This document shows positions 10,375 to 44,434 of a stretch of DNA of 64,000 bases, in pieces. Position numbers and translations under genes: made by a program. Each line of letters begins with the position of its first letter. Position 1 is the first letter of the stretch. The stretch comes from Alcanivorax sp. REN37. GTDB taxonomy: Bacteria > Pseudomonadota > Gammaproteobacteria > Pseudomonadales > Alcanivoracaceae. Below the pieces are notes generated by a model. It had not been told where the DNA came from. It was given only the letters and a program-made list of their open reading frames with translations, and did not search any database. The stretch is from NCBI RefSeq assembly GCF_041102775.1, contig NZ_JBGCUO010000001.1:744001-808000 (forward strand), in the 5' to 3' direction.

Positions 10375-10392
10375 AGCAGTGCCTCGAAATGG

Positions 10393-10577: not shown

Positions 10578-10585
10578 AGCTGGAA

Positions 10586-23364: not shown

Positions 23365-24381
23365 TCAGCTGTCGCGTTGCAGTGCCGCGAGGAATTCCGA
23401 TGGCGGCACGCCTTCCCAGCGCCGGAATGCCCGGCGGAAATTAGCCATGTCGCTGTAACCGAGCAGGTACGCCAATTCCTGCAGCGGCACCCGGCCGCTG
23501 CGCAGGTGCTCCACCGCCAGCATGTGGCGTAGGTCATCACTCAGTTGCTTGAACGAAGTGCCCTCGGCGGCCAGATGCCGGTGCAGCGTGCGTGGCGTCA
23601 TGTGCAACTGGCGGCACACTTCCTCCAGCGTCGGGAATCGGCCTTGGCGCTCCAGCAGATAGCGGCGGATGCGTTGGCCGAGGCGGTCATCAGCACTCAG
23701 TTGCTCCAGCGTCTGGCGGCACAGCGCCTGGGCGCTTTCGAACGCCATCGGGTCGGCCAGCCGCAGTGGCACATCGAGCCGGCTGCGGTCCAACACCAAA
23801 CCGGTCCAGCTGGCCTGGTCATGCACCGGAACGCGGAACAGCGTCTGCGCCAGCGCTAGGTTGTCTGGTGCGGCGCAGTCGAACGCCACCGCCGTTACCG
23901 CATCGTGATCGCGGGTGATGAAGTCGAAAATGTGTTTGATCGCCAACAACACCGCTTCAGCGAGAAAGCGCTCGGTGGCGCCCAGCGGCACCGCCGCGGT
24001 CAGCTGCAAGCGCAGACCGTCAGCGTGCGGTTCCGGTGTCAGCGCCAGCAGCGTGATACGCACCCGCAGGAAGGTCACCAGCAGATCAATGGCATCGCGC
24101 AGGGTGGTGGCGTTCATCGCCGCATAGCCGAGCACGCCGTGGGTCTGCACCGGCAGCCGCTCGCCCAGCAGCAGCCCCAGATCGGCACGGCCGCTGTGGC
24201 TCAGCGATTGCTCCACCAGCTGCTGGAACGCCCGCCAAGGTAGTCGCAGCAGCGCGGTGTCCAGCTGTGACCGCTGCAATCCGGCTGCCGCCAAGCAGCG
24301 ATCGAAATCACCACCCAGGCTGTCCACCAATTCACCGAGCTGCTGCAAGTACAGGCTGGGCAACACAATTGTCAGCGACAT
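23365..24381 (-). CDS. AraC family transcriptional regulator
   Basis: A 338-residue regulator. The first two thirds are an arabinose-binding-like (PF12625, OruR/ArgR-type) ligand domain; the last 100 residues hold two helix-turn-helix motifs, TLEEVCRQLHMTPRTLHRHL and LQELAYLLGYSDMANFRRAF, ending GVPPSEF. It is divergent from the ferredoxin reductase/hydroxylase pair and probably activates it, as AraC proteins do in several alkane and aromatic pathways. The 146-bp gap to the reductase contains a weak inverted repeat ATGAC-N8-GTCAT at 24428-24445. Confidence 0.9.
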   Translation of the reverse strand: MSLTIVLPSLYLQQLGELVDSLGGDFDRCLAAAGLQRSQLDTALLRLPWRAFQQLVEQSLSHSGRADLGLLLGERLPVQTHGVLGYAAMNATTLRDAIDLLVTFLRVRITLLALTPEPHADGLRLQLTAAVPLGATERFLAEAVLLAIKHIFDFITRDHDAVTAVAFDCAAPDNLALAQTLFRVPVHDQASWTGLVLDRSRLDVPLRLADPMAFESAQALCRQTLEQLSADDRLGQRIRRYLLERQGRFPTLEEVCRQLHMTPRTLHRHLAAEGTSFKQLSDDLRHMLAVEHLRSGRVPLQELAYLLGYSDMANFRRAFRRWEGVPPSEFLAALQRDS

Positions 24382-24527
24382 TCCCGTTTCTCCCGGTAAC
24401 TGGGCGTGCAGGCACTAGTGTCCACAAATGACCCCCAGTTGTCATGCGGTGACCTGTTTCTGCTGCCGCCGGCTTCCTAAGGTGCATCCATGGCCAGTGC
24501 GGCCCTCATGCCAACCGGGAGCAGACC

Positions 24528-25553
24528 ATGTTCAGCTGGTTCAAGAAAAACAAAAATCACAGTGCCTGGGTCAACCAACATGCGGTGCCGGTGGCGGCGC
24601 GCGAAACGTTGCTGCAGGCCGGCTTGCGGGCCGGTCTGGATATGCCCTACAGCTGCCGCGTGGGCGGCTGCGGTACCTGCAAATGCAAGTTGGTGGACGG
24701 CAAAGTGCGCCAGCTCACCGACTTCAGCTATGTGCTGTCGGAACAGGAAATGCAGCAGGGTTACATCCTCGCCTGCCAGTCGGTGCCGCTCGGTGAGATT
24801 CGCGTCGAGGCGGTGCTCGACCGGCCGCTGGCGGCTGCCCAGCAGGTCGGTGGCCGGGTGCTGGCACAGCAGCGGCTGACCCACGACATCATGCTGCTGC
24901 GGGTGCGGCTGGATGACAGCCTGCGTTATCTCGCCGGCCAGTATGTGGAGCTGTCGGTGGCGTCGCTGCCCGGCGTCGCCCGCAACTACTCATTCGCGAC
25001 CGCGCCGAGCCATGACGGCATCGCGGAATTTTTTGTGCGCCGCGTGCCCGGCGGCCTGTTCTCGGCGCATATCAATGACCAGCAGTTGGTCGGCGAGGCG
25101 GTGTCGCTGCGCGGCCCGCTGGGCGACTTCCATCTGCATCCCGGCACCGGCCCGTTGCTGATGGTGGCCGGTGGCAGCGGTCTGGCGCCGATCCGGGCCA
25201 TCTTGCAGGACGCTGCTGCCCAAGGGTTGGCGCGCCCGGTGCGGGTGCTGTTCGGCGCCCGCCGTCAACAGGATTTGTACCTGCTTGATGAACTGGAGCA
25301 ACTGGCTCGCCAATGGCCGGCCGCGTTCAGTGTGCTGCCGGTGTTGTCCGAGCCCGGTGATGACGATTGGACCGGCGCCCGCGGCCTAATTACCGAACAC
25401 TTCGGCGCAGTGTCGGCCGACACCGACGCCTACCTGTGTGGCCCACCGGTGATGGTGGATGCCGCCAGTGACGTGCTGCGGCAGCAGGGAATTGATCCTG
25501 CGCGTATCCATGCCGACCGCTTCCTGACGCAACCGCTGGCTGCAGCGGTGTAA
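24528..25553 (+). CDS. 2Fe-2S ferredoxin/FAD reductase (XylA-like electron transfer component)
   Basis: A 341-residue fused electron-transfer protein. Residues about 1-95 are a plant-type ferredoxin domain with CRVGGCGTCKC and a distal Cys in LACQS, four ligands for a [2Fe-2S] cluster. Then comes an FAD domain with RNYSFAT and an NAD domain with VAGGSGLAPI and YLCGPPVMV. It passes electrons from NADH to the membrane hydroxylase encoded 35 bases downstream, as XylA serves XylM. GGGAG precedes the ATG. This differs from classic AlkB systems, which use separate rubredoxin and rubredoxin reductase. Confidence 0.9.
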   Translation: MFSWFKKNKNHSAWVNQHAVPVAARETLLQAGLRAGLDMPYSCRVGGCGTCKCKLVDGKVRQLTDFSYVLSEQEMQQGYILACQSVPLGEIRVEAVLDRPLAAAQQVGGRVLAQQRLTHDIMLLRVRLDDSLRYLAGQYVELSVASLPGVARNYSFATAPSHDGIAEFFVRRVPGGLFSAHINDQQLVGEAVSLRGPLGDFHLHPGTGPLLMVAGGSGLAPIRAILQDAAAQGLARPVRVLFGARRQQDLYLLDELEQLARQWPAAFSVLPVLSEPGDDDWTGARGLITEHFGAVSADTDAYLCGPPVMVDAASDVLRQQGIDPARIHADRFLTQPLAAAV

Positions 25554-25588
25554 CCCCGACCACTCCAACAACAATCACGAGGTCTGTC

Positions 25589-26767
25589 ATGAAACTGCTG
25601 CATTACCTGAAGTATTTCCTGTTCCACGGCATCGGCCTGGCCAGCGTGTTGGCCCTGCTGGCGGGCGGCAACTGGATCATCGCCGGGTTCGTCGCCATCG
25701 TGCTGTTCTATGTGCTGGGCGACGCGCTGCTGGGTGACGACACCACCACGCCGGAATTCAATTTGCCCGGCGTGTTGACGGTGCAGTTGTGGCTGGCGCT
25801 GCCGCTGATGGCGCTGATCACCTTTGTGTCGGTGTGGAGCATGCTTGGCACCGACCCGTTCGGCTTCGGCGCTTGGATCGGTGCGGTCAGCGGCTATGAC
25901 GTGCTTGCCGCGCGGGCGGCCAACACCTGGCTGCATCATCTGTTCGGCGTACTGCTCACCGGCTTGATGATCGGCATCATCGGCACCGTCACCGCCCACG
26001 AATTAACCCACCGTACCTGGGACAAAGTGTCGATGCTGATCGGCCGTTGGCTGCTGGCGTTCAGTTTCGACACCATTTTTTCCATCGAGCATGTGTACGG
26101 CCACCACCGCTACGTGGCCACCATCGACGACCCGGCCACCGCGCCGCGCGGCCGCAACGTCTACTACCACGTGCTGGCCTCCACCTGGAAAGGCAACGTC
26201 AGCGCCTGGCGTATTGAGAAAGCGCGGCTGGTGCGCGTCAACAAGGGGCTGTGGTCGGTGAGCAATGCGTTCCTGCGCGGCCACTTCATGAGCCTGTTGC
26301 TGGTGGCGGCGGCCTGGGCGCTGGGCGGCTGGACCGCGGCGCTGTACTTCACTGCCTGCGCATTGTGGGGCAAGTCGCTGCTGGAAATCGTCAACTACAT
26401 GGAGCACTACGGTATCGTGCGTGACCCGTCCACGCCGGTGCAGCCGCGCCATTCTTGGAACACCAACCGCCGGGTCAGCTCCTGGACCATGTTCAACCTG
26501 ACCCGTCACTCGCACCACCACGCTCAAGGGGAGGTGCCGTACCAAGACCTGCGGCCGTTCCCGGATGCCCCCATGATGATTGGCGGCTACCTGACCACCA
26601 TCATCGTGGCACTGCTGCCGCCGCTGTGGCACCGCCTGATGACGCCGAAAGTGATCGCCTGGGACCGTGACTATGCCTCGCCCGGCGAGCGTAAATTGGC
26701 GGCCGCGGCCAGCCAGCGCAGTGGTATGCCCGCCTTCATCGAAGCGGCCGGTACGCTGTCGCAATGA
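25589..26767 (+). CDS. Membrane di-iron hydroxylase (AlkB/XylM family)
   Basis: A 392-residue integral-membrane non-heme di-iron monooxygenase. Four or more hydrophobic helices are visible, with histidine boxes HELTHR (about 137), EHVYGHH (about 167), NYMEHYG (about 269) and RHSHHH (about 306). AlkB proteins carry HExxHK, EHxxGHH, NYxEHYGL and QRHSxHH, so the spacing fits, while the details and the XylA-like partner point to a XylM-type relative. The likely reaction is terminal hydroxylation of an alkane or an aryl methyl group. It is co-transcribed with the reductase (GAGG site before the ATG). The substrate cannot be decided from sequence. Confidence 0.85.
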   Translation: MKLLHYLKYFLFHGIGLASVLALLAGGNWIIAGFVAIVLFYVLGDALLGDDTTTPEFNLPGVLTVQLWLALPLMALITFVSVWSMLGTDPFGFGAWIGAVSGYDVLAARAANTWLHHLFGVLLTGLMIGIIGTVTAHELTHRTWDKVSMLIGRWLLAFSFDTIFSIEHVYGHHRYVATIDDPATAPRGRNVYYHVLASTWKGNVSAWRIEKARLVRVNKGLWSVSNAFLRGHFMSLLLVAAAWALGGWTAALYFTACALWGKSLLEIVNYMEHYGIVRDPSTPVQPRHSWNTNRRVSSWTMFNLTRHSHHHAQGEVPYQDLRPFPDAPMMIGGYLTTIIVALLPPLWHRLMTPKVIAWDRDYASPGERKLAAAASQRSGMPAFIEAAGTLSQ

Positions 26768-26820
26768 GCCGCGAATCAGGCAACCGGGTGATGGCCGGGC
26801 GCAAATGATGCAGTTATAAC

Positions 26821-26844
26821 CCCAAGGGCAGCGCCGCCCTTGGG
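26821..26844 (+). terminator. Hairpin after the hydroxylase gene
   Basis: CCCAAGGGC-AGCGCC-GCCCTTGGG has a perfect 9-bp stem 53 bases after the hydroxylase stop. No T-run follows, so some transcription may continue into the downstream regulator gene. Confidence 0.45.
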
Positions 26845-26905
26845 TGGGCGGTTGCCGGTGTGTCACACATAACAACGATAACGCAGTGGCCCAGCAGGAG
26901 TTTCC

Positions 26906-29416
26906 ATGACAACCCAACTGCCGATGACGCGGCTGGCACAGCGCGCGAGGATGGCGCCGCCGCAAGGCGGTACTCTGTTCGCGCGCACCGTTGCGCTGCC
27001 GGGAGGTTGGTCCCATGCCGCCACCCCGCTCACGCTGGTGGTAGCGCCTCCCGGTTACGGCAAGACCGCACTGATGCGCTGCGGCTACCAGTGGTATCGC
27101 CGCCATGGCGAACCGGTGGCGTGGCTCACCCTCACTGCGGCGGACAACCATCCGCCCACCTTGCTGCAAGCGCTGCATCAAGCGCTCGGCAGCGACGGCA
27201 CCGGCACATTGGAGCAACTGCTAGAGCGCCACGCTCAGCAGACACCGCGCCAGGTGCTGTTCCTCGACAATCTTGATGTGCTGCGCAACCGCGCGGCGCT
27301 GACACTGGTGGAGCAGTTGCTAGTGCTGCGGCCGTTAGCGTGGTCGCTGGTAATGGCGGCCCGCAGCGAGCCGGCGCTGCCGCTTGCCAGCTGGGTATTC
27401 GACGGTCAGCTGCAACGACTGGAAGGTGCACAGTTGACCATCAGCGAGCGTGAGCTGGCAGAGTTGCTGCCGGCCACCTTGGCGGCCCCCGAGCGCGCCG
27501 GTTGGCAGCAACTGCGCCAGCAGTTGGAAGGCTGGCCGTTGCCGCTGATGTACGGCCTGCGTGAGCTGCAAGCCGGCCGGCTGCACAACATCGATGCCTT
27601 GCAGCAACAGCTGCCGTCATTGCTGGAGCACTATTTTGAAACGCTGCTGCAACGCAGTTGCAGCGCCGAAGAACGCCAGTTGCTGACGCTGGCGGCGCTG
27701 CTGGACGCCGTGTCCGCCGCCCAGCTCGACGCCGTGCGCGGCCGCAGTGGCAGTGGCCCGCTGCTGGAAGCGCTGCGCCGCCGTAATCTATTCCTGCAAC
27801 CGCTGCCGGACCATGGCGGCAGCTATCGTCTGCTGGCGCCGCTGCGCACCTTCCTGCGCCAGCGGCTGCGACGCAACCATCCCGAACAAGCCGCCATGTG
27901 TTACCGCCGCGCTATGCGTTTGTTCCAGCAGCAGGGCCGCATGGAAGAAGCGGTTCACTATGCGCTGCTGGCGCAGGACTATGCTCAGGCCGCCACGCTG
28001 ATGGCGGAGTACGGTCATGAGTTGGTGCGGCGCCGTGGTGATCACCAGCGGCTGTTGTCATGGATCAATCGCTTGCCGGCATCGGCCCGGCAGCAGGTGC
28101 CGCAGCTCGGCGTGCTGTCAGCCTGGTCGCTGGCGTTCACCAACCGCGTGCAAGAGTCGGAGCAGGCGTTGGCCGAGGTGGCGTCGCGGCAGCCGGCCAG
28201 CCGCACGGTGCCGGTGCTGCAATCGCAATTGGAAGCCCAGCGCTGCGTTAACGCGGCGCTGGCTGATGCGCTGCAGGACGCGGCGCGGCTGAGTGAAGCG
28301 TGGCTGACCCGCTGGCAGGAGGCGGGCGCCATGGAAACCGGCACCGTGCTGTGTGTGTCAGCCTTTGCGCTGCTGCATCAAGGTCACGCCAGTGTTGCCC
28401 TGCAGCGACTTGACCGCGCGCGGCAATTGTTCCGCCAGGAAAACTCCGGTTATGGCCTCGGCTGGGTGGCGCTGTTGCAGGCCATGGTGCGACTGGCGCA
28501 GGAGGACTACCTCAGTGCGTTGGCGGAAACCGCCGCGCTGCTCCACCACGATGCGCCGTTGCCGGCCGATCAACAGGACATGCTCGAGCAGGTGCTGATT
28601 TTGCGGGCCGTGGCATTGCTGGCCCAAGGCGATGGTGAGGCGGCGCGCTCGGCGTTGGCCAAGGTGCGCCCGGGGCTGGAACTGCACGCCACCGTGGACG
28701 TGCTGGCGCTGTGGTACAGCGCCCAGGTTGGGCTGGCGTTGTGGGACGGCGCCGACCCCCAGCCGGTATTCCAGCAAGGCTTGGCCACCGCGGCCCAGCG
28801 CGGCCTGGAGCGGTTGCCGTGGCAACTGCAAGTGGAGCGCCGTTATCGCGGACTCTGCAATGAACCGCTGACGCTGCCGAACCGCTGCGAAAGCCGGTTG
28901 CTGACGCTGCGTGCCCAATGTGTACGCCAACGGATGCCCGGCAGTGGCCGTCCGGCGGCGTTGCCGCGCGGCGCAGAAGTGGGACGGCTGTCGGTCTTGG
29001 TGACGGCGGCGGTCACCGCTCAGCGGCGCGGGCAGGCCGGTGCGGCGCTCACCTCATTGCAGCAAGCGCTGGAGCAGGTGGCTGGGCACGGCGGGTTGCA
29101 ATGGCTGCGCAACGAAACCAGCTTGCAGCCGCTGCTGCGCCGGTTGGCTGACGACGGCAGTGTGTCGGCGCCGGTGGCGGCACTGCTGGCACAGTTGCTG
29201 GAGGGCCCGGAACCGAGCGGCAATGATCTGCTCACCAGTCAGGAACAACACATCCTCACCCATCTGGCCAGCGGTCAACGCAATGGCGAGATTGGGCGCC
29301 TGCTGCACATTTCGGAAGGCACGGTGAAATGGCACCTGCACAACGTGTACCGCAAGCTGGATGTGACCTCGCGTACCCAGGCGGTGGCGCGCGCGCGGGA
29401 GCTGCAGTTGTTGTAA
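26906..29416 (+). CDS. AlkS/MalT-like ATP-dependent LuxR regulator
   Basis: An 836-residue STAND-type activator of the MalT/AlkS family. The P-loop APPGYGKTAL is at about 47-56 and LFLDNLDVL is Walker B-like around 113. The middle holds TPR-like helical repeats, and the C-terminal LuxR helix-turn-helix (GEIGRLLHISEGTVKWHLHNVYRKL, shown here only by its ends GEIGRLL and NVYRKL) spans about 772-836. AlkS regulates alkane hydroxylase genes in Pseudomonas, and the position directly behind the hydroxylase supports a similar role. AGGAG precedes the ATG by five bases. Confidence 0.88.
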   Translation: MTTQLPMTRLAQRARMAPPQGGTLFARTVALPGGWSHAATPLTLVVAPPGYGKTALMRCGYQWYRRHGEPVAWLTLTAADNHPPTLLQALHQALGSDGTGTLEQLLERHAQQTPRQVLFLDNLDVLRNRAALTLVEQLLVLRPLAWSLVMAARSEPALPLASWVFDGQLQRLEGAQLTISERELAELLPATLAAPERAGWQQLRQQLEGWPLPLMYGLRELQAGRLHNIDALQQQLPSLLEHYFETLLQRSCSAEERQLLTLAALLDAVSAAQLDAVRGRSGSGPLLEALRRRNLFLQPLPDHGGSYRLLAPLRTFLRQRLRRNHPEQAAMCYRRAMRLFQQQGRMEEAVHYALLAQDYAQAATLMAEYGHELVRRRGDHQRLLSWINRLPASARQQVPQLGVLSAWSLAFTNRVQESEQALAEVASRQPASRTVPVLQSQLEAQRCVNAALADALQDAARLSEAWLTRWQEAGAMETGTVLCVSAFALLHQGHASVALQRLDRARQLFRQENSGYGLGWVALLQAMVRLAQEDYLSALAETAALLHHDAPLPADQQDMLEQVLILRAVALLAQGDGEAARSALAKVRPGLELHATVDVLALWYSAQVGLALWDGADPQPVFQQGLATAAQRGLERLPWQLQVERRYRGLCNEPLTLPNRCESRLLTLRAQCVRQRMPGSGRPAALPRGAEVGRLSVLVTAAVTAQRRGQAGAALTSLQQALEQVAGHGGLQWLRNETSLQPLLRRLADDGSVSAPVAALLAQLLEGPEPSGNDLLTSQEQHILTHLASGQRNGEIGRLLHISEGTVKWHLHNVYRKLDVTSRTQAVARARELQLL

Positions 29417-29493: not shown

Positions 29494-29787
29494 TCAGGCG
29501 TCGAACACGGGGTCCATCAGCAGGTAGGTGCCGGGCGCCCGTTGCCAGCGGTCGATCTGCGGTACCAGCCGCTGGAAATGCTCGGTGGCGCAATGGGCGT
29601 CGAGGGCTGCGCGGTCCGGCCACAGCTCGACAAAGATAAAGTGCCCGGCGTCTTTCTGATTGGTAAACAGCTCGTAGGACAGGCAGTGCGGTTCTTGCCG
29701 GGTCAGTGCCACCAACTCTTGGTACAGCGGCATCACCTGCTCGATGTGCTGCGGGTGGATGAAATCTTGGGCAATCACTTTCAGCAT
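29494..29787 (-). CDS. Antibiotic biosynthesis monooxygenase (ABM) domain protein
   Basis: A 97-residue ferredoxin-like-fold protein of the ABM/YgiN group. It shows the typical pattern MLKVIAQDFIHP, then ALTRQEPHCLSYELF, FIFVELWPDRAALDAHCATEHF, and a closing strand. Members are small cofactor-free quinol or aromatic oxygenases, or simply uncharacterised. An open frame extends upstream but the ATG at 29787, with GGAG ten bases before it, is the family start. It lies downstream of the TRAP operon but behind a strong terminator, so it probably has its own promoter. Confidence 0.8.
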   Translation of the reverse strand: MLKVIAQDFIHPQHIEQVMPLYQELVALTRQEPHCLSYELFTNQKDAGHFIFVELWPDRAALDAHCATEHFQRLVPQIDRWQRAPGTYLLMDPVFDA

Positions 29788-29881
29788 CAGCGGCTCCGGC
29801 AACAGGGGAGGAGGGTTGCCGGCATGGTGCACGGGAGCGTGCGGGGAAGAAAGCATGGGCAGCGGGTTTTGATCGTTGCAG

Positions 29882-29920
29882 AAAAAAGCCGCGCCTGACC
29901 GGGTGTCCGTCAGGCGCGGC
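29882..29920 (-). terminator. Strong intrinsic terminator of the TRAP operon
   Basis: GCCGCGCCTGAC (29888-29899) pairs perfectly with GTCAGGCGCGGC (29909-29920) around a 9-base loop; on the minus strand a run of six T follows. It lies just after the stop of the TRAP permease gene. Confidence 0.93.
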
Positions 29921-29928
29921 AACGTAGC

Positions 29929-32040
29929 TCAGTACCCAACCGCCAGGGGGACGTAAGCTACGAGTAACAGGGCGATGGCCATTACCGTCACCGGCATCAC
30001 CAACCGCTCATGGCGGCGCCACCAGGTTTGCTCGGCGCGGCTCTCGGCGTGGGTCAGGTCCATCTCGTCATCGCCAATCACTTGGCGGGTGAGAATCTGG
30101 TTGAGCGCAATCGGCGGCGTCAGGTAACCCAGTTCGAACGCCACCAGCACCACCATCCAGAAGTGCACCGGATCGATGCCGCTCTGGTAGGCGATGCTGG
30201 CGATGGTGGCGGACACCAAAATAATGGCGCCGTAGGGGTCCATGAACATGCCGATCACCACCAGCACCGCCACCAGCATGGTCATTGCCATCCATATCGA
30301 GCTGAAGTCGGTGGGGAACAGCTCCATCACGCCGGCACGCTCCAGCACGCCGCCGAGTACCACGGACAGCGCCATCAACATCAGCAGTGCGCCGATGTGG
30401 ATACTGGATTCTGCGGTGCCAGCGATCAGCCGCTGCCAGAAGCCGCCGCTGGCCGGCGCCATCGGAGCGACCTCGCCCGCCGCCGGCGCAGCCGGTTGCG
30501 GCTGGCGCTTGCGGCTCCAAACGTCATAGCCGAGCAGCAGGATCAGCGTCACCGGCAGAATGGTCGGCGCTGAGAACTCGTTGAAACGCTGGTTCAGCAC
30601 GAAGTGGAAGAACGTGATGCTGACGGTGGCGATGACCACGTAGGGCAGCAGCGGAATCAGTGCTTTCAGCGATGCCGGCAATGCTTCTCGGGCCGGGGCA
30701 CAGCTGAGCGGATTGCGCCGGGTCAGCAGCACCATGGCGGAGAACAGCACCGCGGTGAGCAGGAACACGTTGTGGCCGCTGTCGAACAGTTGCGTTGTGG
30801 TCACCTGCTTGTTCAGCGAGGCAATGATCACCACCATCAGGCAGGGGTTGAGTACCACACCCATGCTGCCGGACATCGCCGTCGCCGCGAATGCCAGCGG
30901 ACGCCGGGCGCCGCTCATGCGGATCTCGTGGTAGATCAGACCGCCGACGGCGATCAGGAAAATCCCGGACGCGCCGGTAAAGGCGGTGGGCAGTGCGGCC
31001 AGTAGCACCACCACAATGGTGATCAGCTCCGGTGCCAGTTTCCACGGACGGATGGCGTCGAACACCAGGTGCGCCAGCCGCGTTTGCTTCAGCAGCATCC
31101 CGACCCACACGTACAGCGCCACGTTGATGTACAGGTCGGCGTGCTTGACCATCTTGATCAGCTGCACCGCCATGCCGGCCTGATAGTGCTCTGCCAGCAG
31201 GAAGTAGAGACCAGAGATCAGCGCCATATAGGCGTAAACCGGGATCGTCAGCAGCGCACCGAGCCAGTTGCCGCCACTGGGCAGCTGTCGGTCACGACGC
31301 AACATCTGGACCACGCTGACCAGGGTCAGAGCACTGAAGCCGACAATCCAGAGCCAGTGCACCCAAGGCGACGCGCTGTCGCCGGAGTCCATGGCAATGG
31401 CGCGCCAGCGCACCGCGCTGAGCAGCAGCAACAGGTTGCCGAACAGTTGAAACAGTGCAGACACCTGGGCATCGCGCTGGGTACGGATGGCGCGCAGCGA
31501 AATGTGGCTGTGTTGCAGCGTACCGACCAGCGCACATAGCAAAATCACGCCCACCAGCAGGTACTTCTGCGCATCCAAGCCCATCACTGCCACTTCACCC
31601 ACTGCGGCTTCGACGCTGCTGTAGGCCACCAGCAGCGAGGATTGCCGCAGCTGTTGGTTGTGGGCATAGGCCAGGTGTTGTTCGGCGCACTGCACCTGCT
31701 GCGCCTGCAGCGAACGGCGAATGCTGTCCGGGTTCGGCGCTCGGAACGGCAGGATGCTGTCGGCGGCCTGCGCTTCGGCGCGGGCGATTTGGTCGGCAAT
31801 GCGCTGCTCGATATCGAAGTGCGCATCACAGGTGGGGGCCGGCATCGCGTGGCGCAGCATGCCGTAGTCGTTCCACATGCTCTGTCCGAATGACAGTAGC
31901 TGGGAGTGCAGGTAGGAACTGGTGCCGAAAATAATCGCCAACAACAAAATCAGCGAGGCGGGCAGCACCGACCACAGGGATTGCGAGCGCGGCGCCGCCT
32001 GGCCGCTCGCGGAGGCGTGAGCCTGATGGGTAGCTAGCAT
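29929..32040 (-). CDS. TRAP transporter permease with fused small and large subunits
   Basis: A 703-residue inner-membrane protein. An N-terminal helix (about 24-45) is followed by a soluble stretch of about 110 residues, then several helices resembling a DctQ-type small subunit, then a DctM-like large permease with many helices. Recognisable DctM features are AALPTAFTGASGIFLIAVGG, SGSMGVVLNPCLMVV and FELGYLTPPIALNQ. TRAP transporters are secondary importers driven by Na+ or H+ gradients. Start at 32040 has CAGGA upstream; the open frame continues further but lacks family signal. It is the third gene of an operon with a solute-binding protein and a TatT-like lipoprotein. Confidence 0.85.
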   Translation of the reverse strand: MLATHQAHASASGQAAPRSQSLWSVLPASLILLLAIIFGTSSYLHSQLLSFGQSMWNDYGMLRHAMPAPTCDAHFDIEQRIADQIARAEAQAADSILPFRAPNPDSIRRSLQAQQVQCAEQHLAYAHNQQLRQSSLLVAYSSVEAAVGEVAVMGLDAQKYLLVGVILLCALVGTLQHSHISLRAIRTQRDAQVSALFQLFGNLLLLLSAVRWRAIAMDSGDSASPWVHWLWIVGFSALTLVSVVQMLRRDRQLPSGGNWLGALLTIPVYAYMALISGLYFLLAEHYQAGMAVQLIKMVKHADLYINVALYVWVGMLLKQTRLAHLVFDAIRPWKLAPELITIVVVLLAALPTAFTGASGIFLIAVGGLIYHEIRMSGARRPLAFAATAMSGSMGVVLNPCLMVVIIASLNKQVTTTQLFDSGHNVFLLTAVLFSAMVLLTRRNPLSCAPAREALPASLKALIPLLPYVVIATVSITFFHFVLNQRFNEFSAPTILPVTLILLLGYDVWSRKRQPQPAAPAAGEVAPMAPASGGFWQRLIAGTAESSIHIGALLMLMALSVVLGGVLERAGVMELFPTDFSSIWMAMTMLVAVLVVIGMFMDPYGAIILVSATIASIAYQSGIDPVHFWMVVLVAFELGYLTPPIALNQILTRQVIGDDEMDLTHAESRAEQTWWRRHERLVMPVTVMAIALLLVAYVPLAVGY

Positions 32041-32111
32041 CGGAAAAATCCTGGCAAACAAGGGACAGGAAAGAAGATCGGCCCCGCTGTGTTGGCAGCG
32101 GGGCCGCGGGC

Positions 32112-33140
32112 TCAGATCGCCGGGCCGCCTTCGGTATCGCGGGTGCACTCGGCGTTGTCGGGCAGTTCACGGCAACGGATGGTTTTCAACATGGTCTGCA
32201 TGCGGCGCGAATAGACCTTGTCGGCGTCATAGAGGCGCTGACGCACGTCAGAGAACATGCTGTTGTAACGCGCTTCCTTGTCGGCGCTCAGGTCCACCCA
32301 GTACTTGGTGGGAATCGCCGCTTCGGCTTGTTCCACCACGCGCATGCCCACGTCCCACATGTTGTCGTAAACCCAGGTGCGTGATTGCTGGGCGAATTCT
32401 GCCGGGAAGCGGTCGTGGTGCAGCGTCACCTGGAAGGTGAGGATGCCGAGGTTGTAGCGCAGGATGCCGCCGTTCTCGCCCAAGCCTTTGTACATTTCCA
32501 GCGCTTGGTAAGCGAAGCCCGGAGCGTAGGACAGGTCGGCGCTCTTGCTGTTGAACATGCCGGCAAAGGTGCTCACCGACGCCGGCATCACGGTGCCGCC
32601 GACGTATTTGATCATCTCTACCGCCTGCTCATCCTCTGAAATCACCGTGATGCGCTTGCCGGCCAGCTTTTCCCAGTCGTCCAGCGTGTTGCGATCGTGC
32701 GAGAACAAGTACACCTTGCCGCCAGGAATGATGCCGGCGTTTTCGTATTTGCCGTCCTTCATCAGCGGCGCCGCGTTCGGCGCTGACAGCGCAGCGATGG
32801 CGGTGTTGAGGCCGTCGTAGGTGGGCAGCGCCGCCATCATGTCCAGCGATCCTGGGAATTTGAGAATGCTGCGGGTGGCGATGCCGAACAGCTCCACCGC
32901 GTCACAGTGGCCGGCCATGAAGTCGCCCTTGGCCAGCGCTTCGTCGGTGTACGGCTTGAGCTTGAAGTTCACACCCCATTGTTGGGCAGCCAGCACGTAC
33001 TGTTTCATCATCTGGTAGGTATCGCCGTTGGCGCCTACGACGTCGAACACGCACAGGGTCCGATCAACCATGGCGGCGGCGCCGTTAGAGAACGCCAGAG
33101 CACCGGTAAGCAGGGCGGCGTGGGTCAGTTTCTTCAGCAT
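32112..33140 (-). CDS. TRAP-associated solute-binding protein (DUF6091-like)
   Basis: A 342-residue periplasmic protein with signal peptide MLKKLTHAALLTGALAFSNGA, cleaved near AAA. The mature part begins VDRTLCVFDVVGANGD, followed by AGHCDAVELFGIATRS and a solute-binding-like alternation of strands and helices. It resembles the putative solute-binding proteins of the DUF6091 group that travel with TRAP-like permeases, not the classic DctP. Four cysteines, two near the C terminus, could form disulfides. The ATG has AAGGTG upstream. It lies 46 bases after the TatT-like gene and 71 bases before the permease. Ligand unknown. Confidence 0.75.
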   Translation of the reverse strand: MLKKLTHAALLTGALAFSNGAAAMVDRTLCVFDVVGANGDTYQMMKQYVLAAQQWGVNFKLKPYTDEALAKGDFMAGHCDAVELFGIATRSILKFPGSLDMMAALPTYDGLNTAIAALSAPNAAPLMKDGKYENAGIIPGGKVYLFSHDRNTLDDWEKLAGKRITVISEDEQAVEMIKYVGGTVMPASVSTFAGMFNSKSADLSYAPGFAYQALEMYKGLGENGGILRYNLGILTFQVTLHHDRFPAEFAQQSRTWVYDNMWDVGMRVVEQAEAAIPTKYWVDLSADKEARYNSMFSDVRQRLYDADKVYSRRMQTMLKTIRCRELPDNAECTRDTEGGPAI

Positions 33141-33186
33141 GTGTTTCACCTTCTTGTTCTGATGAGTGGCAAAAGTCTGGCGACGG

Positions 33187-34206
33187 TTACAGCAATCCTT
33201 GGATGTTGGCGGCCGGGCGGCGGCTCTCGCCGGGGAAGGTGCCCAGGGCACCGGCTGGCGTCCGCGCGCCGGTTTGTTCAATCCAAATTTGGTCAGACAG
33301 GTACAGCAGCTGGCCACGGGAGATGAAATCCACCAGCGCGTAGGGCTCCGGCGGCGCCACCTCGGCAGCACGGATGGCGGCGGCTTGGCGCAGCGCTTCA
33401 CGCAGCTCGTTGTCACGGCCCTGGTTGCCCGCACCCAACGCGAACAGCGTCAGCGGCAGCGTGGCGCCATGGCGTGCGGCCACCGCGCCCGCTTGGCGGT
33501 AGGCCTGCCAAATGTCGGCGCCGTCCGGCGCACTGCCCGGCACGAACGACCACACCGTGGCGCGAATCGCCTGCGGCACGCCCCACCATTTTTCGTTGTC
33601 GAGACAGGTTGAGGAACGCATCGCCTGCATCGCCAGATCGCGCGGCACGCCCACCTGCGCGCCGGACAGCAGATCACTGCGCACCGCCTGCAACACCGTC
33701 ACCAAACCGACCATATACGTCAGTTCGTCATCACGAGTGCGCAGGCGCGGGCAGTAGCGCTCATCGAGTTCGCCGTAACGGCGGGTAAGGGCACCGACCG
33801 CTTTCATACGGCGCTCGGCCGCCAGCGCGTGCCAACGCTGCGCCTGCAGCAATTCGTCACGGGCGATCACCGACTGGCCCTGCTGACGCGCGCGCCAGTG
33901 GCGCAGATCGGCCTCGTAGGCCTGCTCCTCGGCGCACAGGCCGGTCAGCAGATCGGTATAAAACAGCACGTAATCCGGGCTTTTCACCACTCGACCAAAG
34001 GACGCCATCAGCTGCGTCAGACCGTTGCCGGTGCCACAAGCCGATACGTTGGCATCGTTTTCGTCGAGCACATAAGGCACCACCTCGCCTTTGGCATAGG
34101 CACCCAGCGTCCAGCCCAACGGCGGATACAGAGCGGCACAGCCAGACAGGACCAAGGTGGCGGCGAGAGCGGTTAACAGGGACAGCGACGGAACAGAAAA
34201 CCTCAT
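33187..34206 (-). CDS. TatT-like TRAP-associated lipoprotein
   Basis: A 339-residue lipoprotein; TALAATLVLSGC has the lipobox cysteine at about residue 23. The mature chain is almost all alpha-helical with TPR-like repeats (SPDYVLFYTDLLTGLCAEEQ, GQSVIARDELLQAQ). Position as first gene of a TRAP operon and this helical nature match the TatT (T component) family, trimeric lipoproteins first described in Treponema that bind a TRAP solute-binding protein. CCGGAG precedes the ATG. Assignment to TatT rests on context plus general character. Confidence 0.6.
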   Translation of the reverse strand: MRFSVPSLSLLTALAATLVLSGCAALYPPLGWTLGAYAKGEVVPYVLDENDANVSACGTGNGLTQLMASFGRVVKSPDYVLFYTDLLTGLCAEEQAYEADLRHWRARQQGQSVIARDELLQAQRWHALAAERRMKAVGALTRRYGELDERYCPRLRTRDDELTYMVGLVTVLQAVRSDLLSGAQVGVPRDLAMQAMRSSTCLDNEKWWGVPQAIRATVWSFVPGSAPDGADIWQAYRQAGAVAARHGATLPLTLFALGAGNQGRDNELREALRQAAAIRAAEVAPPEPYALVDFISRGQLLYLSDQIWIEQTGARTPAGALGTFPGESRRPAANIQGLL

Positions 34207-34497
34207 GATGCACGCTCCGGAAACGGGTGTGTCTTTGTTGTTGTTTGGAGGCGGGCAGCACCCGCCGGCATGGCACGCCATGCAAGGGGACTAGTTAAGG
34301 ACGGGGAGGGGGAGAGGGGAACCTATCGAAAGTTGGGGGTTGTGTGGGTGATTTGTAAAGGCAGGGGGCGATTCAGATTCGGAAGAAGAAAAGCGGAGGG
34401 ATATGTGTGTGGGTCAAATGTGGTGGGGCCTGAGATGTGCGGCAACGCCACGGCAATAGTTCTGCCATGGGCCGATTTGAAAGAGGCGAGCTGGGAG
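34207..34497. other. Purine-rich intergenic region upstream of the TRAP operon
   Basis: No convincing gene. From about 34281 to 34435 the plus strand is strongly purine-rich. Four G-runs at 34303-34306, 34308-34312, 34316-34319 and 34335-34339 could form a G-quadruplex. The promoter of the leftward TRAP operon should lie here. The region ends at the island boundary. Confidence 0.5.
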
Positions 34498-34545
34498 ATT
34501 GGTGGGCCCACCAGGACTTGAACCTGGGACCAAGGGATTATGAGT
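34498..34545. repeat. Left 48-bp direct repeat (displaced tRNA-Ile2 3' end)
   Basis: Identical over 48 bp to 44356-44403. On the minus strand it runs from the anticodon loop (ACTCATAATCCC) through the T arm to the encoded CCA. It is the 3' fragment left behind when the island inserted and restored the tRNA at the other end. It is not a functional tRNA. Confidence 0.93.
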
Positions 34546-34667
34546 TGCCTGGAAGCGCCTCAAGCCCAGCAAAACCGTAAATAGCTTGGTGCAAGTAAAA
34601 TAAGCTGAAGGCAGCGTCGTTACAGTGCTTGAACGAAACTTTGCGAAACCTGAAAAAGCTAGGGGCT

Positions 34668-34695
34668 GTACCGCTAGCGTACCGTTTTTTGTACC
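34668..34695. repeat. Three GTACC direct repeats near the left island end
   Basis: GTACC occurs at 34668, 34679 and 34691, start-to-start 11 and 12 bp. The last two form GTACCGTTTTTTGTACC, closely matching GTACCGATTTTGTACC at 44269-44284 near the right end. Helically phased repeats at both ends are consistent with integrase arm-type binding sites. The surrounding 34546-34730 shows no convincing gene. Confidence 0.4.
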
Positions 34696-34730
34696 TCAGA
34701 AACGCTATTGTCATTGTGTCGCGTGCCGGG

Positions 34731-35558
34731 CTATCGCGAGAAACGTTGAATATCCGTACGAATCTTCTCAACGACCTCAATCAGCTGGGCACCACAGAGC
34801 CCCTGCTCGGCGTCAGCGCGCAGTTCATCTAGCCATGGGGAGTGCCCGGAGTAGTGTGGCCATAGCTCATGGTCGGCTTCCAGGGGGTGAGGGCGGCATC
34901 TGTCCAGCCAGTTGGGGATAAGCCCTTTATGGTGGCTCAGTTGATACAGGGAAGCTGCATCCAGCTGCGAGCGGCGCATGATGGCACCATGGTGATGGGC
35001 AATTGCCAAAACCTGCAGAAGATGAGTCAGGCAGGGCCGATTCTCGAAGTGGCCGCCTTCGGTGAGGTGGTAAAAGCGTCTGCATGCCGAACGGTCTTCA
35101 GCCAGTCGCTCCAGAATCAGAGCGTAATAGCCTTCCGAGCCCGGCCCGATTTCTTGGTCGTTGGGTGTTAGCAGATGCAGTTTGAATTCGAAGTCGGCCT
35201 CAGGTGTGCGCTGCTCCTGAAACCATTGATGCAGCTCCCCCGGCGCTTTGTAGCTAAAGAGGTGCTGGTGGGCCGAATCGCTTTGCCCGGTCAGCCAGCC
35301 CTCTTCGAGCGCGAAATGCTGGATGAGCCAATCCAGATGTGCCTGGCGCAAGGCCAGCTTGAGCTGATCGGCATTCGACCATTGGTAGGCACTTAGCTGT
35401 AGCGCTTCCGGCAGCAGGGCATTGATCTCAGTGCGGGCCACGCCATGGGCTTCGAAGGTCGCCAGTACGCGTGCTGCCTGCTGGCGTACCGGGTTGCGCC
35501 GCTCACTGAGCCAGGCAAACAGGCGCTGCAGCAAATCAATCCAGTCCTTGGGGTTCAT
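34731..35558 (-). CDS. Unrecognised protein at the end of the hsd operon
   Basis: A 275-residue, mostly helical soluble protein with no signal peptide and no family I recognise. Notable segments are WIDLLQRLFAWLSERRNPVRQ, a Trp- and His-rich middle (YHLTEGGHFENRP, IAHHHGAIMRRSQ), and LWPHYSGHSPWLDELRADA near the end. AGGAG precedes the ATG. It begins 35 bases after the hsdS stop on the same strand, so it is probably the last gene of the restriction operon and may be an accessory or separate defence protein. Confidence 0.7.
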   Translation of the reverse strand: MNPKDWIDLLQRLFAWLSERRNPVRQQAARVLATFEAHGVARTEINALLPEALQLSAYQWSNADQLKLALRQAHLDWLIQHFALEEGWLTGQSDSAHQHLFSYKAPGELHQWFQEQRTPEADFEFKLHLLTPNDQEIGPGSEGYYALILERLAEDRSACRRFYHLTEGGHFENRPCLTHLLQVLAIAHHHGAIMRRSQLDAASLYQLSHHKGLIPNWLDRCRPHPLEADHELWPHYSGHSPWLDELRADAEQGLCGAQLIEVVEKIRTDIQRFSR

Positions 35559-35593
35559 GCGGCAGCTCCTGCGTTAGCGGCTGAATCGTGCGT

Positions 35594-37012
35594 TTATGCC
35601 GATGCCTTTCTACCGCGCCTGGCCTTGGGCGCGGCGGCGCGCTGGGTTTTGATGCGTTCCAACAGCACGCTGGCCGGTTCGTCGTTCGGGTCTTGCGGCA
35701 CCAATTCGCCACGGAAGGCTTTGGCCAAGACGCTTTGAGTCAGATGGTCGATTCGGCTTTTGGCCGAGGCGACTTTGGCTTCCAGTTGGTCGGCGAAGGC
35801 AAAGAGTTGTTCTACGCGGCGGACTATTTCGGTTTGTTCTTCGTATGGTGGTAAAGCAACTGGCAGTCTCCTCACATCGGCCAAATTAATGCCCTTTTGT
35901 GCCACACCACGGACCTTGCCAACAAGTAAGCGCTGCCCAAGCGGGCTCTGAAGAAGACACGCCAGATAGAACGGCACTACTGATGGAAGTGTCGGAATCA
36001 TTGCTAATTCACGACTAATATTGCAGTCACGCAGCGATACAGGAACAACACCAACATTACCGACGGAGCCGCGAATCGCCAGCAATACTTCACCACCTTT
36101 GAGTCGAGTTCTTTTGTACTCATGCTCAATCTCAGCTGAAACTATTTTCAGGCCTGAGGTATCAATAAATAGGTTTTTAACGTCCCCACATCTAACGGTA
36201 GGAATACCCTTTTCAACAGCACTACCTGTTTGAACAATTCCGTATGGAATGCCCCGGTCAGGCTCAACAAGTTGTTCCAAAGCGTATTTCTTCCAGAAAG
36301 TGGGCAGTGGCTCCGTCAATAGCTCCTCGGCGGCAGCTAACTCTTCCATACCAAGAGCTTTTGCCTTTGGGTTTAGTACAACACCAAGGTCGCCGGGCTT
36401 TTCCTCTCGCCACTCCTCCGTCAACCGCCCGGAAACGGCGGCGGCGAGGACGGATTGGCGGAAGCGTTTGAGTAGGGCGGGGATGGCGTCGATGCGGGCT
36501 TTGAGGGTGTCGACCTGGGCCAGCAGTTCATCGAGTTTTTGGGCGATGCGGGTTTGTTCGGCGAGTGGCGGAAAGGAAATCTCTGTTTTCTCGAAAGTCC
36601 CCTTGGTTACATGGCGAAGGCCTACCCCGCCTTGAGCCGAGCTGATTAGCTCATCCAACTTCTGATTAATCGCGTAACGAAGAAATCCACGGTTAGTCTC
36701 TCGTTCCGAAAACTCAATCTTGAAGATGTGCTGATTCAGAACGGCATCGCCGCCATGCCAAATATGCGCGCCAAAAGAGGTGCCTGGTGTGCCGGACCAA
36801 GCAAACAGTAGATCGCCATTTTTAACATGGTGCTTTGCGTCAAAATCTCCCGAGAAATGGTTGAACTTTGAAGCCGGATTGTTCAGGTTTTGAATCCTGA
36901 TAATTGGTAAACCGGAGTCTGACCACTCTTGAGGTTTGAATGCGCGGCCATTGATCAGGTTGCACAGATCGCCAATCTCAGCGCGTTCCCAGCCATTCGG
37001 CAACTCACTCAT
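35594..37012 (-). CDS. hsdS: Type I restriction enzyme specificity subunit
   Basis: A 472-residue HsdS that picks the bipartite DNA target for methylation and cutting. Two target-recognition domains are visible, about residues 1-155 and 235-395, each followed by a conserved helical spacer (PPLAEQTRIAQKLDELLAQV and PPYEEQTEIVRRVEQLFAFA). The C-terminal tail GELVPQDPNDEPASVLLERI is typical of the family. Its start overlaps the end of hsdM by eight bases, indicating translational coupling. The protein appears complete. Confidence 0.95.
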   Translation of the reverse strand: MSELPNGWERAEIGDLCNLINGRAFKPQEWSDSGLPIIRIQNLNNPASKFNHFSGDFDAKHHVKNGDLLFAWSGTPGTSFGAHIWHGGDAVLNQHIFKIEFSERETNRGFLRYAINQKLDELISSAQGGVGLRHVTKGTFEKTEISFPPLAEQTRIAQKLDELLAQVDTLKARIDAIPALLKRFRQSVLAAAVSGRLTEEWREEKPGDLGVVLNPKAKALGMEELAAAEELLTEPLPTFWKKYALEQLVEPDRGIPYGIVQTGSAVEKGIPTVRCGDVKNLFIDTSGLKIVSAEIEHEYKRTRLKGGEVLLAIRGSVGNVGVVPVSLRDCNISRELAMIPTLPSVVPFYLACLLQSPLGQRLLVGKVRGVAQKGINLADVRRLPVALPPYEEQTEIVRRVEQLFAFADQLEAKVASAKSRIDHLTQSVLAKAFRGELVPQDPNDEPASVLLERIKTQRAAAPKARRGRKASA

Positions 37013-38552
37013 CCCCAGCCTCCTGAACCACCGCCAACCCCATCACCTCCGCCATCAACTGCTTCTGCGCCGCCACTTCATCCCCAGCACCCAGCGCCTT
37101 CATCAGTTCTTCCAGCTCATGCAGCGCCTCGGTCAGTTCGGCCATGGCCTCACCGGCCAGCACTTCCGGGGCAGGGAGTTCGGCGGCGTCCAGGCTGTCG
37201 GCATCCTTTAGCCAGTTGATATCCAGGGAGTTGCCACGCTCACGTATCTGCTCGCGGGTAAACACGCGGAAGCGGCTCAGCTCGCCAATCCCTTCCACAT
37301 TCTCGGCACGCGGGCTGTTGCCGTTCGGGTCATCCCCGTAGGCGTCCTCGAAGGGTTTGAGGTGCTGCGCGCCAAAGGGGGTGCGCTTGCCAAAGCTGGG
37401 CATATTGCTGCGCAGGTCATAGACCCATACGCGCTGGGTGCAGCCTTGTTCCTGGCGTGGGTTGGCGGTGCTGCCTTTCTGGAAGAACAGCACATTGGTT
37501 TTGACGCCCTGGGCGTAGAAGATGCCGGTGGGCAGGCGCAAGATTGTGTGCAGGTTGCACTTGTCCATCAGGTCGCGGCGTACCTCGGTGCCGACGCCGG
37601 CCTCGAACAGTACGTTGTCCGGCAGGACCACGGCGGCGCGGCCGCCGGGCTTGAGGCCGCGATAGATATGCTGCAGGAAGGCTAGCTGCTTGTTGCTGGT
37701 TTTGTAGGTGAGGTCGTCACGGGTCGGGCCGCCACCGCCTTTGGCCGTGCCAAAGGGCGGGTTGGAGAGAATCACGTCCACCTTGGGCAGGTTGGCCCCG
37801 CTTTGGCCAAGGGCGTTGCCTAGGTGCACCACGCCTTCTTCGTCGCCTTCCATGCCGTGCAGCAGGGTATTCATCAGCGCCAAGCGGCGGGTGCCGGGCA
37901 CCAGTTCGATGCCGACAAAGGCCTTGTTGCGCTGGAAGCTGCGGACTTTCTCATCGAGGTCATAGAGGTCGTCGGTGTGGCGCTTGATATAGGCGTCGGC
38001 GGCAATCAGAAAGCCTGCGGTGCCGGCGGCCGGGTCCTGGATGGTTTCACCGGGTTGCGGCTTGATGCAGCGGATGATGCTGTCGATCAGCGGGCGCGGG
38101 GTGAAGTACTGGCCAGCGCCGGATTTGGTTTCGCTGGCGTTCTTTTCCAGTAGGCCCTCGTAGAGATCACCGAGGCCATCCTGACGGGCGCTGAACCAGT
38201 CGATGCCGTCCAGGCTTTTGATCAACTGTTCCAGGTGGCGCGGCTCTTTCAGGCGCGTTTGCGCGTCGGCATAGATGGCGGCGATCAGCGGGTCGCTGTT
38301 CTTGCCCAGATCCAGCAGCATCTGCCGGTAGTGGTCGAGCAGGTTAAGACCGGATTTGCCGGCCAGATCGGGCCAGCGTGCCCCCTCGGGCAGCTTGTGG
38401 GCGAAGCTGTCGTTGTTCTGAACCTGCTCGTATTCCATTTTGATAAACAGCAGCAAGACCAGCTCGGTGACGTAGTCGCTGTAATTGATGCCGTCGTCGC
38501 GCAGCACGTCGCAGAGGTTCCAGAGCTTCTGGACGATGTCGGAATTGGTCAT
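37005..38552 (-). CDS. hsdM: Type I restriction-modification methyltransferase subunit
   Basis: A 515-residue N6-adenine methyltransferase. The N-terminal helical domain is followed by the SAM-binding DPAAGTAGFLIAAD at about residue 170 and the catalytic motif IV NPPFGTAKGG near residue 265. It works with HsdS as modification enzyme (M2S) and with HsdR as restriction enzyme. It overlaps hsdS by eight bases and follows the Abi gene by 72 bases. The ribosome site is weak. Confidence 0.96.
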   Translation of the reverse strand: MTNSDIVQKLWNLCDVLRDDGINYSDYVTELVLLLFIKMEYEQVQNNDSFAHKLPEGARWPDLAGKSGLNLLDHYRQMLLDLGKNSDPLIAAIYADAQTRLKEPRHLEQLIKSLDGIDWFSARQDGLGDLYEGLLEKNASETKSGAGQYFTPRPLIDSIIRCIKPQPGETIQDPAAGTAGFLIAADAYIKRHTDDLYDLDEKVRSFQRNKAFVGIELVPGTRRLALMNTLLHGMEGDEEGVVHLGNALGQSGANLPKVDVILSNPPFGTAKGGGGPTRDDLTYKTSNKQLAFLQHIYRGLKPGGRAAVVLPDNVLFEAGVGTEVRRDLMDKCNLHTILRLPTGIFYAQGVKTNVLFFQKGSTANPRQEQGCTQRVWVYDLRSNMPSFGKRTPFGAQHLKPFEDAYGDDPNGNSPRAENVEGIGELSRFRVFTREQIRERGNSLDINWLKDADSLDAAELPAPEVLAGEAMAELTEALHELEELMKALGAGDEVAAQKQLMAEVMGLAVVQEAGDE

Positions 38553-38624
38553 GGGGGATCTCTAATTGGCTCATGGCGTGAGCCGAATACATCTGCTATC
38601 CGGCTCACAGGGAAATAGGGAGGC

Positions 38625-39623
38625 TTAGTCGGGTGTTTGCCAGAACGGGTCGTTCTGCCAGCCGGGCGGAAAACCCATGGCCCGTAGGTTGGTCTCTGGA
38701 AACTCTGCCAGCAAGTGGTGCAGGCGCCCGTCCCAACTGGTATGCGGGCTGACCTGACGCATCAGCAGGTTGAGGATGCACAGCACGGTGAACAGGCGGG
38801 CATGTTGTCCGGGTTGTTGCAGGTGTTGCGGCCAGGGGAAATTAAACGTTCTGGGTAGCTCGGGACGAATACCCAGCTCGCGGTTCCACAGGCGTGCGTG
38901 ATGCGCGCAAATATTGCGGATGGTGGTCAGGGTGTGCAGCCAGGATTGCAGCAGTGGGGCCGGTAGCTTCAGACGTTTGGCGATGGCCTTTTTGTCGGCG
39001 TCGCGAGCCAGGCCTTTGAACAGATGCGAGAGATCGCCCAGGGTGATTTCTTCCATGGCTGCCCAGGCGGGCATTAGCTCGGGGCTGTTATATGTCAGGG
39101 CGTAATGACGTGCGTAGCTTTCCTTGGCGCGCATGCTCTTGAGCTGCTCTTTGCGGGCGTCAGACGCTTGGGGGGCGTCGATGCGCTGGCATTCGCGCAG
39201 ATGATCCTGGAATGCCTTGTCCTGCTTGCTGCGGATGCTGTCGAGTAGTGACTGGTGCCGATAGCTGCGCTGGAAGAACTTTGGTTCTAGATACCAATGC
39301 GAGCCATATTGCGGCCCCATGTGGTTGCTAATAACGGCCCTGGCCGCGACTTCTATGCGCTCGATGGCATCCATGACCAGCAGGCGCAGGCGACGGTCGA
39401 AGTCATACAGACGGGTGAGTGCCTGCAGGCGCGTGCCGGGCTTGAAACCGTGGTCGGCATCTTCCGAAAGCTGGAATGGGCGCATGTAGGGCGTGAGGCG
39501 GAAGAAGCTGACCGCCTCCAGAAAGCAGTGCGCTTTGGCTTCATCCTGGATGGTAAGCCCACGCTGTTTGAGCAGGGCCAGCTGCGCAGGAATATCAATG
39601 GCTGGCTTGCTGAAGGGCTTCAT
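38625..39623 (-). CDS. Abi family protein (AbiD/AbiF-like, HEPN motif)
   Basis: A 332-residue protein of the Abi_2 group, related to lactococcal AbiD/AbiF phage abortive-infection proteins. The N terminus KPAIDIPAQLALLKQRGL and FFRLTPYMRPF fit the family, and RLYDFDRRLRLLVMDAIERIE is its conserved helix. RNICAHHARLWNRELG at about 236-251 contains the R-N-x3-H signature of HEPN ribonucleases. It lies between hsdR and hsdM in the same orientation. Likely role: RNA cleavage during phage attack; activity is inferred. The 274 bases between it and hsdR hold no gene that I see. Confidence 0.85.
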   Translation of the reverse strand: MKPFSKPAIDIPAQLALLKQRGLTIQDEAKAHCFLEAVSFFRLTPYMRPFQLSEDADHGFKPGTRLQALTRLYDFDRRLRLLVMDAIERIEVAARAVISNHMGPQYGSHWYLEPKFFQRSYRHQSLLDSIRSKQDKAFQDHLRECQRIDAPQASDARKEQLKSMRAKESYARHYALTYNSPELMPAWAAMEEITLGDLSHLFKGLARDADKKAIAKRLKLPAPLLQSWLHTLTTIRNICAHHARLWNRELGIRPELPRTFNFPWPQHLQQPGQHARLFTVLCILNLLMRQVSPHTSWDGRLHHLLAEFPETNLRAMGFPPGWQNDPFWQTPD

Positions 39624-39897
39624 GCGGAAAAACTATCGGACATAAAAAACCCGCTCAATTTGTGCGTAGCTGCCGAAGCAACCATAGGCATGGCGGGTGT
39701 GTTGCGTGAGAGGTTATGCACCACGGCAGTGTTTTGCAAGGGGTTTGGCACTGTAATGATAAGCGGATCGGTGTGTTTGGCAGTCTGTGGGCGTAGCAGT
39801 TTGCCCATATACAGCGCGCAACTGGCTTCGAGCGCAGGTGTCCGCTGTCCTGGGACCGAGGACACCTGCTGTCGGTAAATCCACGAGGCGTCAATGC

Positions 39898-44321: not shown

Positions 44322-44355
44322 ATAGCTTAAAGCCGCGCAGTGCGCGGCTTTGGAA

Positions 44356-44434
<79 letters not shown>

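Follow-up and report, generated by a model that had tools for sequence, protein, structure and literature searches.

A T-component-like lipoprotein, an AdeT-type binding protein and a fused permease form a putative TRAP importer operon in Alcanivorax sp. REN37

We analysed a 64,000-nucleotide stretch of the genome of Alcanivorax sp. REN37 (contig NZ_JBGCUO010000001.1, positions 744,001 to 808,000; hereafter the window, numbered from its first letter), in which three genes on the minus strand resemble a tripartite ATP-independent periplasmic (TRAP) transporter. They follow one another in the order lipoprotein, binding protein, fused TRAP permease, with gaps of 46 and 71 bases, and comprise the following features:

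33187..34206, minus strand: lipoprotein, T-component-like (TatT fold by prediction); ATG at 34206 to stop at 33187, 339 amino acids
34138-34140, minus strand: codon of C23, in the lipobox LSGC of the lipoprotein
32112..33140, minus strand: secreted solute-binding protein, PF19582 (AdeT1_2); ATG at 33140 to stop at 32112, 342 amino acids
29929..32040, minus strand: fused TRAP permease, Q and M parts in one chain; ATG at 32040 to stop at 29929, 703 amino acids
32148, minus strand: alternative GTG start of the permease
31636..31875, minus strand: extra helical segment of the permease, about 80 codons (residues 56-135), with C71 and C118

A preliminary description of this stretch had placed the three genes within 29929-34206, and we find that both the coordinates and the genes are sound. 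The binding protein matches Pfam AdeT1_2 with E 1.7e-52 (179 bits against a cut-off of 27), the permease matches Pfam DctM (PF06808) over its larger, C-terminal part with E 2.3e-15 (56.8 bits against a cut-off of 23.8), and homologues occur across the order. An NCBIfam scan of the three proteins gave none above a cut-off; against the dctM subfamily model TIGR00786 the permease scores 74.9 bits, below the cut-off of 268.45, indicating that it is divergent.

Lipoprotein homologues (26-39% identity, up to five per genome) are present in 54 of 293 genomes of the order, a count that includes one weak partial match (E 4e-4) in genome G077. AdeT1_2 was found in 53 of the same genomes and this type of permease in 52, the three sets differing only by G077 and by G173, which has no permease match and whose lipoprotein gene is close to the start of its contig. 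None of the 293 genomes without the lipoprotein has AdeT1_2. A phylum sample of 398 genomes contains 8 with the lipoprotein, 7 of them in this order (own genome included), and in the family of genome G101 the lipoprotein is found in 67 of 149 genomes.

A pattern-led search yielded 80 named loci, a set biased to relatives that share one conserved peptide pattern; they come chiefly from Alcanivorax, Alloalcanivorax and Marinobacter, and also from Oleispira, Hahella, Pseudomonas and others. A conserved operon, on which the preliminary description had made its reading depend, is evident in these loci: the binding gene directly follows the lipoprotein gene in 77, a permease gene is present in 72, and the three genes are consecutive in 69. 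Among 20 further regions, two of which are other loci of the window's own genome, 19 hold the lipoprotein with a binding gene and 15 the permease as well. Upstream, many loci have two or three additional AdeT1_2 genes; a second permease is present in some loci. The three parts, all of which had been called atypical, are thus typical of a system widespread in this order and depart only from the textbook TRAP transporter.

Neither Pfam nor NCBIfam matches the lipoprotein at E<=1, and direct membership of the TatT family is ruled out for it by every sequence test (PF16811 and hhalign, given below). As a positive control, a profile of the genuine TatT encoded elsewhere in the same genome, together with its relatives, finds the Protein Data Bank (PDB) entries 8g52 and 3u64 by sequence; a profile of the lipoprotein family gives chance-level matches only among PDB sequences and recovers neither entry. 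The AlphaFold model of the lipoprotein, built with 58 sequences, is all helical (pLDDT 87, pTM 0.83). VIA-align ranks TatT 4di3_A and 3u64 at the top, both with Z 16.7 (248 and 245 residues, 4.0 A), followed by 8g52, a protein of a tetratricopeptide repeat (TPR)-protein-associated TRAP transporter (TPAT), with Z 16.6, by the sterol binder BstC (7t1s) with Z 12.9, and then by a designed barrel with Z 12.3. Foldseek places 7t1s first and 3u64 second, each with probability 1.00. Because ranks 1-4 of VIA-align are T-component entries alone, we accept, with some caution, that the modelled lipoprotein shares the T-component fold. Besides the lipobox cysteine, C57, C91, C152 and C201 are invariant in 58 of 58 aligned rows. 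A lipobox was recognised in 71 of the 80 lipoprotein open reading frames (ORFs), with mostly Ser, Thr, Gly or Ala at the +2 residue. Since the residue at +2 generally directs the sorting of lipoproteins between membranes, the lipobox and this residue make the outer membrane its probable site of anchoring.

The binding protein carries a Sec-type signal without a lipobox, and no lipobox was recognised in any of 77 adjacent binding ORFs. Its four cysteines, which the preliminary description had pointed out, are C30, C79, C323 and C332, invariant in 20 of 20 sequences. That description had also called the protein non-DctP and DUF6091-like, DUF6091 presumably being the older name of PF19582. The family assignment stands; the separation from DctP does not hold entirely. 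PF03480 (DctP) gives no match at E<=1 to the window protein, nor at its position in the search of its own genome, but hhalign relates the binding-protein family to 16 DctP rows with a probability of 73% (E 3e-5), and PF03480 itself matches weakly beside lipoprotein genes in six places (E 4e-9 to 3e-4). These alignments suggest a distant DctP relative; a binding-protein profile run against PDB sequences gave chance-level matches only. In the column of the carboxylate-binding arginine (Arg147 of SiaP), all 15 ordinary DctP rows have R, the 20 AdeT1_2-type rows all have T, S, A or G (T in the window protein), and the TPAT-type DctP of the same genome has W. This arginine restricts TRAP binding proteins to carboxylates (excerpt of PMC4646407), and in Tp0957, a TPAT binding protein, an alanine at the same position accompanies a hydrophobic pocket (same excerpt).

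The permease model (pLDDT 88.5) aligns over its whole length with the fused TRAP QM structures 8y4w (Z 24.7, 531 residues), 8thj (Z 23.8) and 9pym (Z 23.5), and the best Foldseek match is 9pym (E 2e-11). As had been described, it is a single chain with an extra soluble segment after its first helix: the first helix spans about residues 26-55, soluble helices follow at 59-63, 77-94 and 104-132, and the next membrane helix lies at about 157-175. The extra segment is presumably periplasmic. Its C71 and C118 are invariant in 42 of 42 rows, so a disulfide between them is likely. All seven genomes of the genus have permease matches, which apart from the window copy reach only 46-49% identity, and no close orthologue of this exact operon was found in these seven genomes. 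In a tree of 62 permeases, which left out 21 loci (mostly near-duplicates) and ORFs shorter than 601 amino acids, the window copy sits on a long branch (0.87) with unsure placement.

The same genome also carries an ordinary TatT-DctP-DctQ-DctM system on C1 at about 2.224-2.228 Mb (locus L223, C1:2217000-2235000, positions 7124-10792), which includes:

C1:2226925-2227659: TatT of the own genome, PF16811 with E 1.6e-75

Beside this TatT lies a DctP (PF03480, E 3.8e-36), with a DctM (E 4.4e-86) and a separate Q protein of 162 amino acids. Of the new kind, the genome has three lipoproteins, six AdeT1_2 genes and three permeases, and the two systems therefore exist in parallel. The transporter class is presumed to be the same in this one cell; the ordinary system has a real PF16811 TatT, a PF03480 DctP and a Q protein of 162 amino acids in all that is separate from DctM, whereas the window permease is fused. 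The T component had been described as mainly spirochaetal, a view that fails for TatT within this order, where PF16811 exceeds its cut-off in 39 of 145 genomes.

Compared with the TPAT of Treponema pallidum (TatT-TatP-TatQM, Tp0956-Tp0957; 3u64, 4di3), the window operon likewise brings together a T protein, a binding protein and a TRAP permease; its T component is of like predicted fold (Z 16.7), and its binding protein has also lost the carboxylate arginine. It differs in that its T protein has no detectable sequence similarity (no PF16811 match), its binding protein belongs to PF19582 and not to DctP, and its permease has the extra segment. TatP is reported as a lipoprotein (excerpt of PMC5812351), unlike the secreted window protein, which has no lipobox. 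BstC of Methylococcus capsulatus (7t1s) matches the lipoprotein in T-component fold (Z 12.9, Foldseek rank 1); it is grouped with BstA, of resistance-nodulation-division (RND) type, and BstB, a phosphonate-type binding protein, and not with a TRAP permease (excerpt of PMC10942540). The fused permeases SiaQM and IseQM (8thj, 8y4w, 9pym) have the whole-length fold in common with ours (Z 23.5-24.7) at 15-16% identity, but the window permease is longer (703 amino acids against modelled chains of 592-615 residues) and bears the extra segment after helix 1.

AdeT1 and AdeT2 of Acinetobacter baumannii belong, by family name, to the same Pfam family PF19582 as the window binding protein; unlike it, they are annotated and studied as an RND efflux component. 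AdeT1 has been termed a membrane fusion protein, and the wild-type AdeT1 conferred no resistance in E. coli (excerpt of PMC7687900). A literature search returned nothing joining AdeT1 with a TRAP transporter, and nothing on DUF6091; within excerpts of the literature on Alcanivorax with TRAP transporters and alkanes, no report of this system was seen. AdeT1_2 occurs in 16 of 16 Acinetobacter-type genomes. In A. baumannii VB958, a lipoprotein homologue ('hypothetical protein') is followed by a rhombosortase and then by a 'TRAP transporter large permease subunit'; elsewhere in this genome three genes stand in a row, two annotated 'RND transporter' and one 'hypothetical protein', one of them under a binding-protein match, and the match table counts four such places in the record. 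Four Acinetobacter-type loci (L211, L213, L220 and L249) have a rhomboid-family gene between lipoprotein and permease, where it replaces the binding gene.

Based on these results, we propose that the operon encodes a TPAT-like TRAP importer of hydrophobic or amphipathic molecules, with a probability of roughly 0.6; candidate ligands would be lipids, fatty acids, hydrocarbons or their oxidation products. In this model the all-helical lipoprotein would take the ligand into a central cavity, as expected from TatT and BstC, and would pass it to the AdeT-type binding protein, a soluble protein with a cleft that lacks the arginine limiting ligands to carboxylates and may accept the hydrophobic class. 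The binding protein would then dock on the fused QM permease, where the extra helical segment probably receives it, and import of the ligand by the permease would presumably draw on an ion gradient, as elsewhere in the TRAP family. Beyond the gene order, the fold and the arginine column, these are steps that we infer. A hydrophobic substrate is supported by the fold, the lost arginine, the carrier genera and some of the neighbouring genes: a FadL/TodX gene lies near the lipoprotein in two loci (L041 and L071), genes for START lipid-binding proteins in two tested loci (L113, the same locus as L218, and L216), and acyl-CoA thioesterase genes in two loci. The carriers are largely Alcanivorax, Alloalcanivorax, Marinobacter and Oleispira, and these genera include hydrocarbon degraders (in part after an excerpt of PMC7284936).

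Several observations weigh against this interpretation. PF16811 gave no match at E<=10 in any of 21 lipoprotein family members, and hhalign of the lipoprotein family against the TatT family of the own genome and its relatives returned a probability of 0.05%; the TatT-likeness asserted earlier for the first gene is therefore lost at the level of sequence and retained in the predicted fold (Z 16.7). The Foldseek matches to 7t1s and 3u64 have E values of only 0.04-0.06 and TM-scores of 0.30-0.43, and helical proteins obtain middling Z scores from their common arrangement, so that a best Z near 14 calls for caution with such models. The reading of the arginine column depends on a remote alignment; in a second one, made with a hidden Markov model, 118 ORFs out of 125 extend over the column (A 102, S 15, P 1), all with alignment scores of 16.5 bits or less, and the window protein failed to align. 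Furthermore, many loci are surrounded by housekeeping genes in a context that is not uniform, and in Acinetobacter-type genomes the binding genes lie apart from lipoprotein and permease: among ten such regions, 4 have a binding gene next to the lipoprotein and 8 have a permease close by.

TPR-like folds often mediate protein contacts, and the lipoprotein might accordingly help the binding protein to dock or assemble while holding no ligand itself, within a TRAP importer that is otherwise ordinary and takes up a small polar solute. In favour of this, the permease is clearly related to TRAP QM proteins, and a TRAP protein without the arginine has been reported to bind ethanolamine (excerpt of PMC4646407). 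We nevertheless regard this reading as rather unlikely, since the structures closest to the lipoprotein model are T components with a known or proposed role in holding ligands and not general TPR proteins, and its carriers are largely genera with hydrocarbon degraders (in part after an excerpt of PMC7284936). Less probable still is that the system moves lipids outward or between the membranes, as proposed for sterol transport by BstA, BstB and BstC, and does not import nutrients. BstC, which is related to T components and binds sterols of the cell's own making (excerpt of PMC10942540), is a top fold match here and START-domain genes lie near some loci; however, the permease is of the TRAP QM class, described as uptake systems (excerpt of PMC5812351), and a binding protein is present.

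Finally, the AdeT-type protein could be a membrane fusion protein of RND efflux that stands beside a TRAP permease by chance, as the 'RND transporter' annotation in A. baumannii VB958 and the description of AdeT1 as a membrane fusion protein (excerpt of PMC7687900) would have it. This we consider very improbable: the operon has no RND partner gene, AdeT1_2 never occurs without the lipoprotein among the 293 genomes (one genome with both having no permease match), the AdeT-type protein is distantly similar to DctP, and the wild-type AdeT1 gave E. coli no resistance (same excerpt).

If the importer reading is right, the Acinetobacter AdeT, annotated as RND efflux, would be a TRAP binding protein. 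More broadly, and tentatively, at slightly less than even odds in our judgement, a second lineage of T components without detectable sequence relation to the first may define a class of lipid or hydrocarbon TRAP importers in this order, with few permeases each served by a choice of interchangeable AdeT-type binding proteins, one of which would be the 'efflux' AdeT of Acinetobacter. Little is understood of the way in which hydrocarbon degraders bring hydrophobic molecules across the periplasm to the inner membrane; the proposal, if true, would provide a dedicated T-component route for this in Alcanivorax, Marinobacter and Acinetobacter, would add a T-component family missed by current profiles, and would make AdeT, which has long figured in lists of resistance efflux genes, a protein of uptake. 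This last point fits the wild-type AdeT1 giving no resistance in E. coli (excerpt of PMC7687900). TPAT systems in proteobacteria have been assigned mostly to hydrocarbon-degrading species (excerpt of PMC5812351), and transport of aliphatic compounds is therefore no novel idea; our addition is a second T lineage that is partnered by AdeT-type proteins.

Downstream of the permease, a further small ORF begins 6 bases past its stop and is possibly co-transcribed with the trio as a putative member:

29494..29922, minus strand: small ABM-domain (PF03992) ORF

Beside the transporter, the stretch 23365-29416 encodes an AraC-type regulator, a BenC-like ferredoxin reductase, a membrane hydroxylase of the fatty-acid desaturase family, which we take to be of AlkB/XylM type, and a MalT-like LuxR regulator, together a probable cluster for hydrocarbon oxidation. 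The operon has a G+C content of 0.63, the same as most of the window, and hence no sign of foreign origin. From just upstream of the operon to near a tRNA-Met (44358-44434), the stretch 34200-44434 is lower in G+C (0.57-0.60) and holds type I restriction-modification genes for specificity (35594-37012), methylase (37005-38552) and endonuclease (39898-43485); it is possibly a genomic island.

A solitary AdeT1_2 gene was seen at locus L224 (4550-5713), with no lipoprotein or permease in the 14 kb around it. At L041, L071 and L039 the lipoprotein lies beside a protein of more than 1000 amino acids, with Big_5 Ig-like domains in the two loci tested (L039 and L041). The Marinobacter adhaerens plasmid pHP-187 (187 kb) bears the whole trio, indicating that the system can be carried by mobile DNA.

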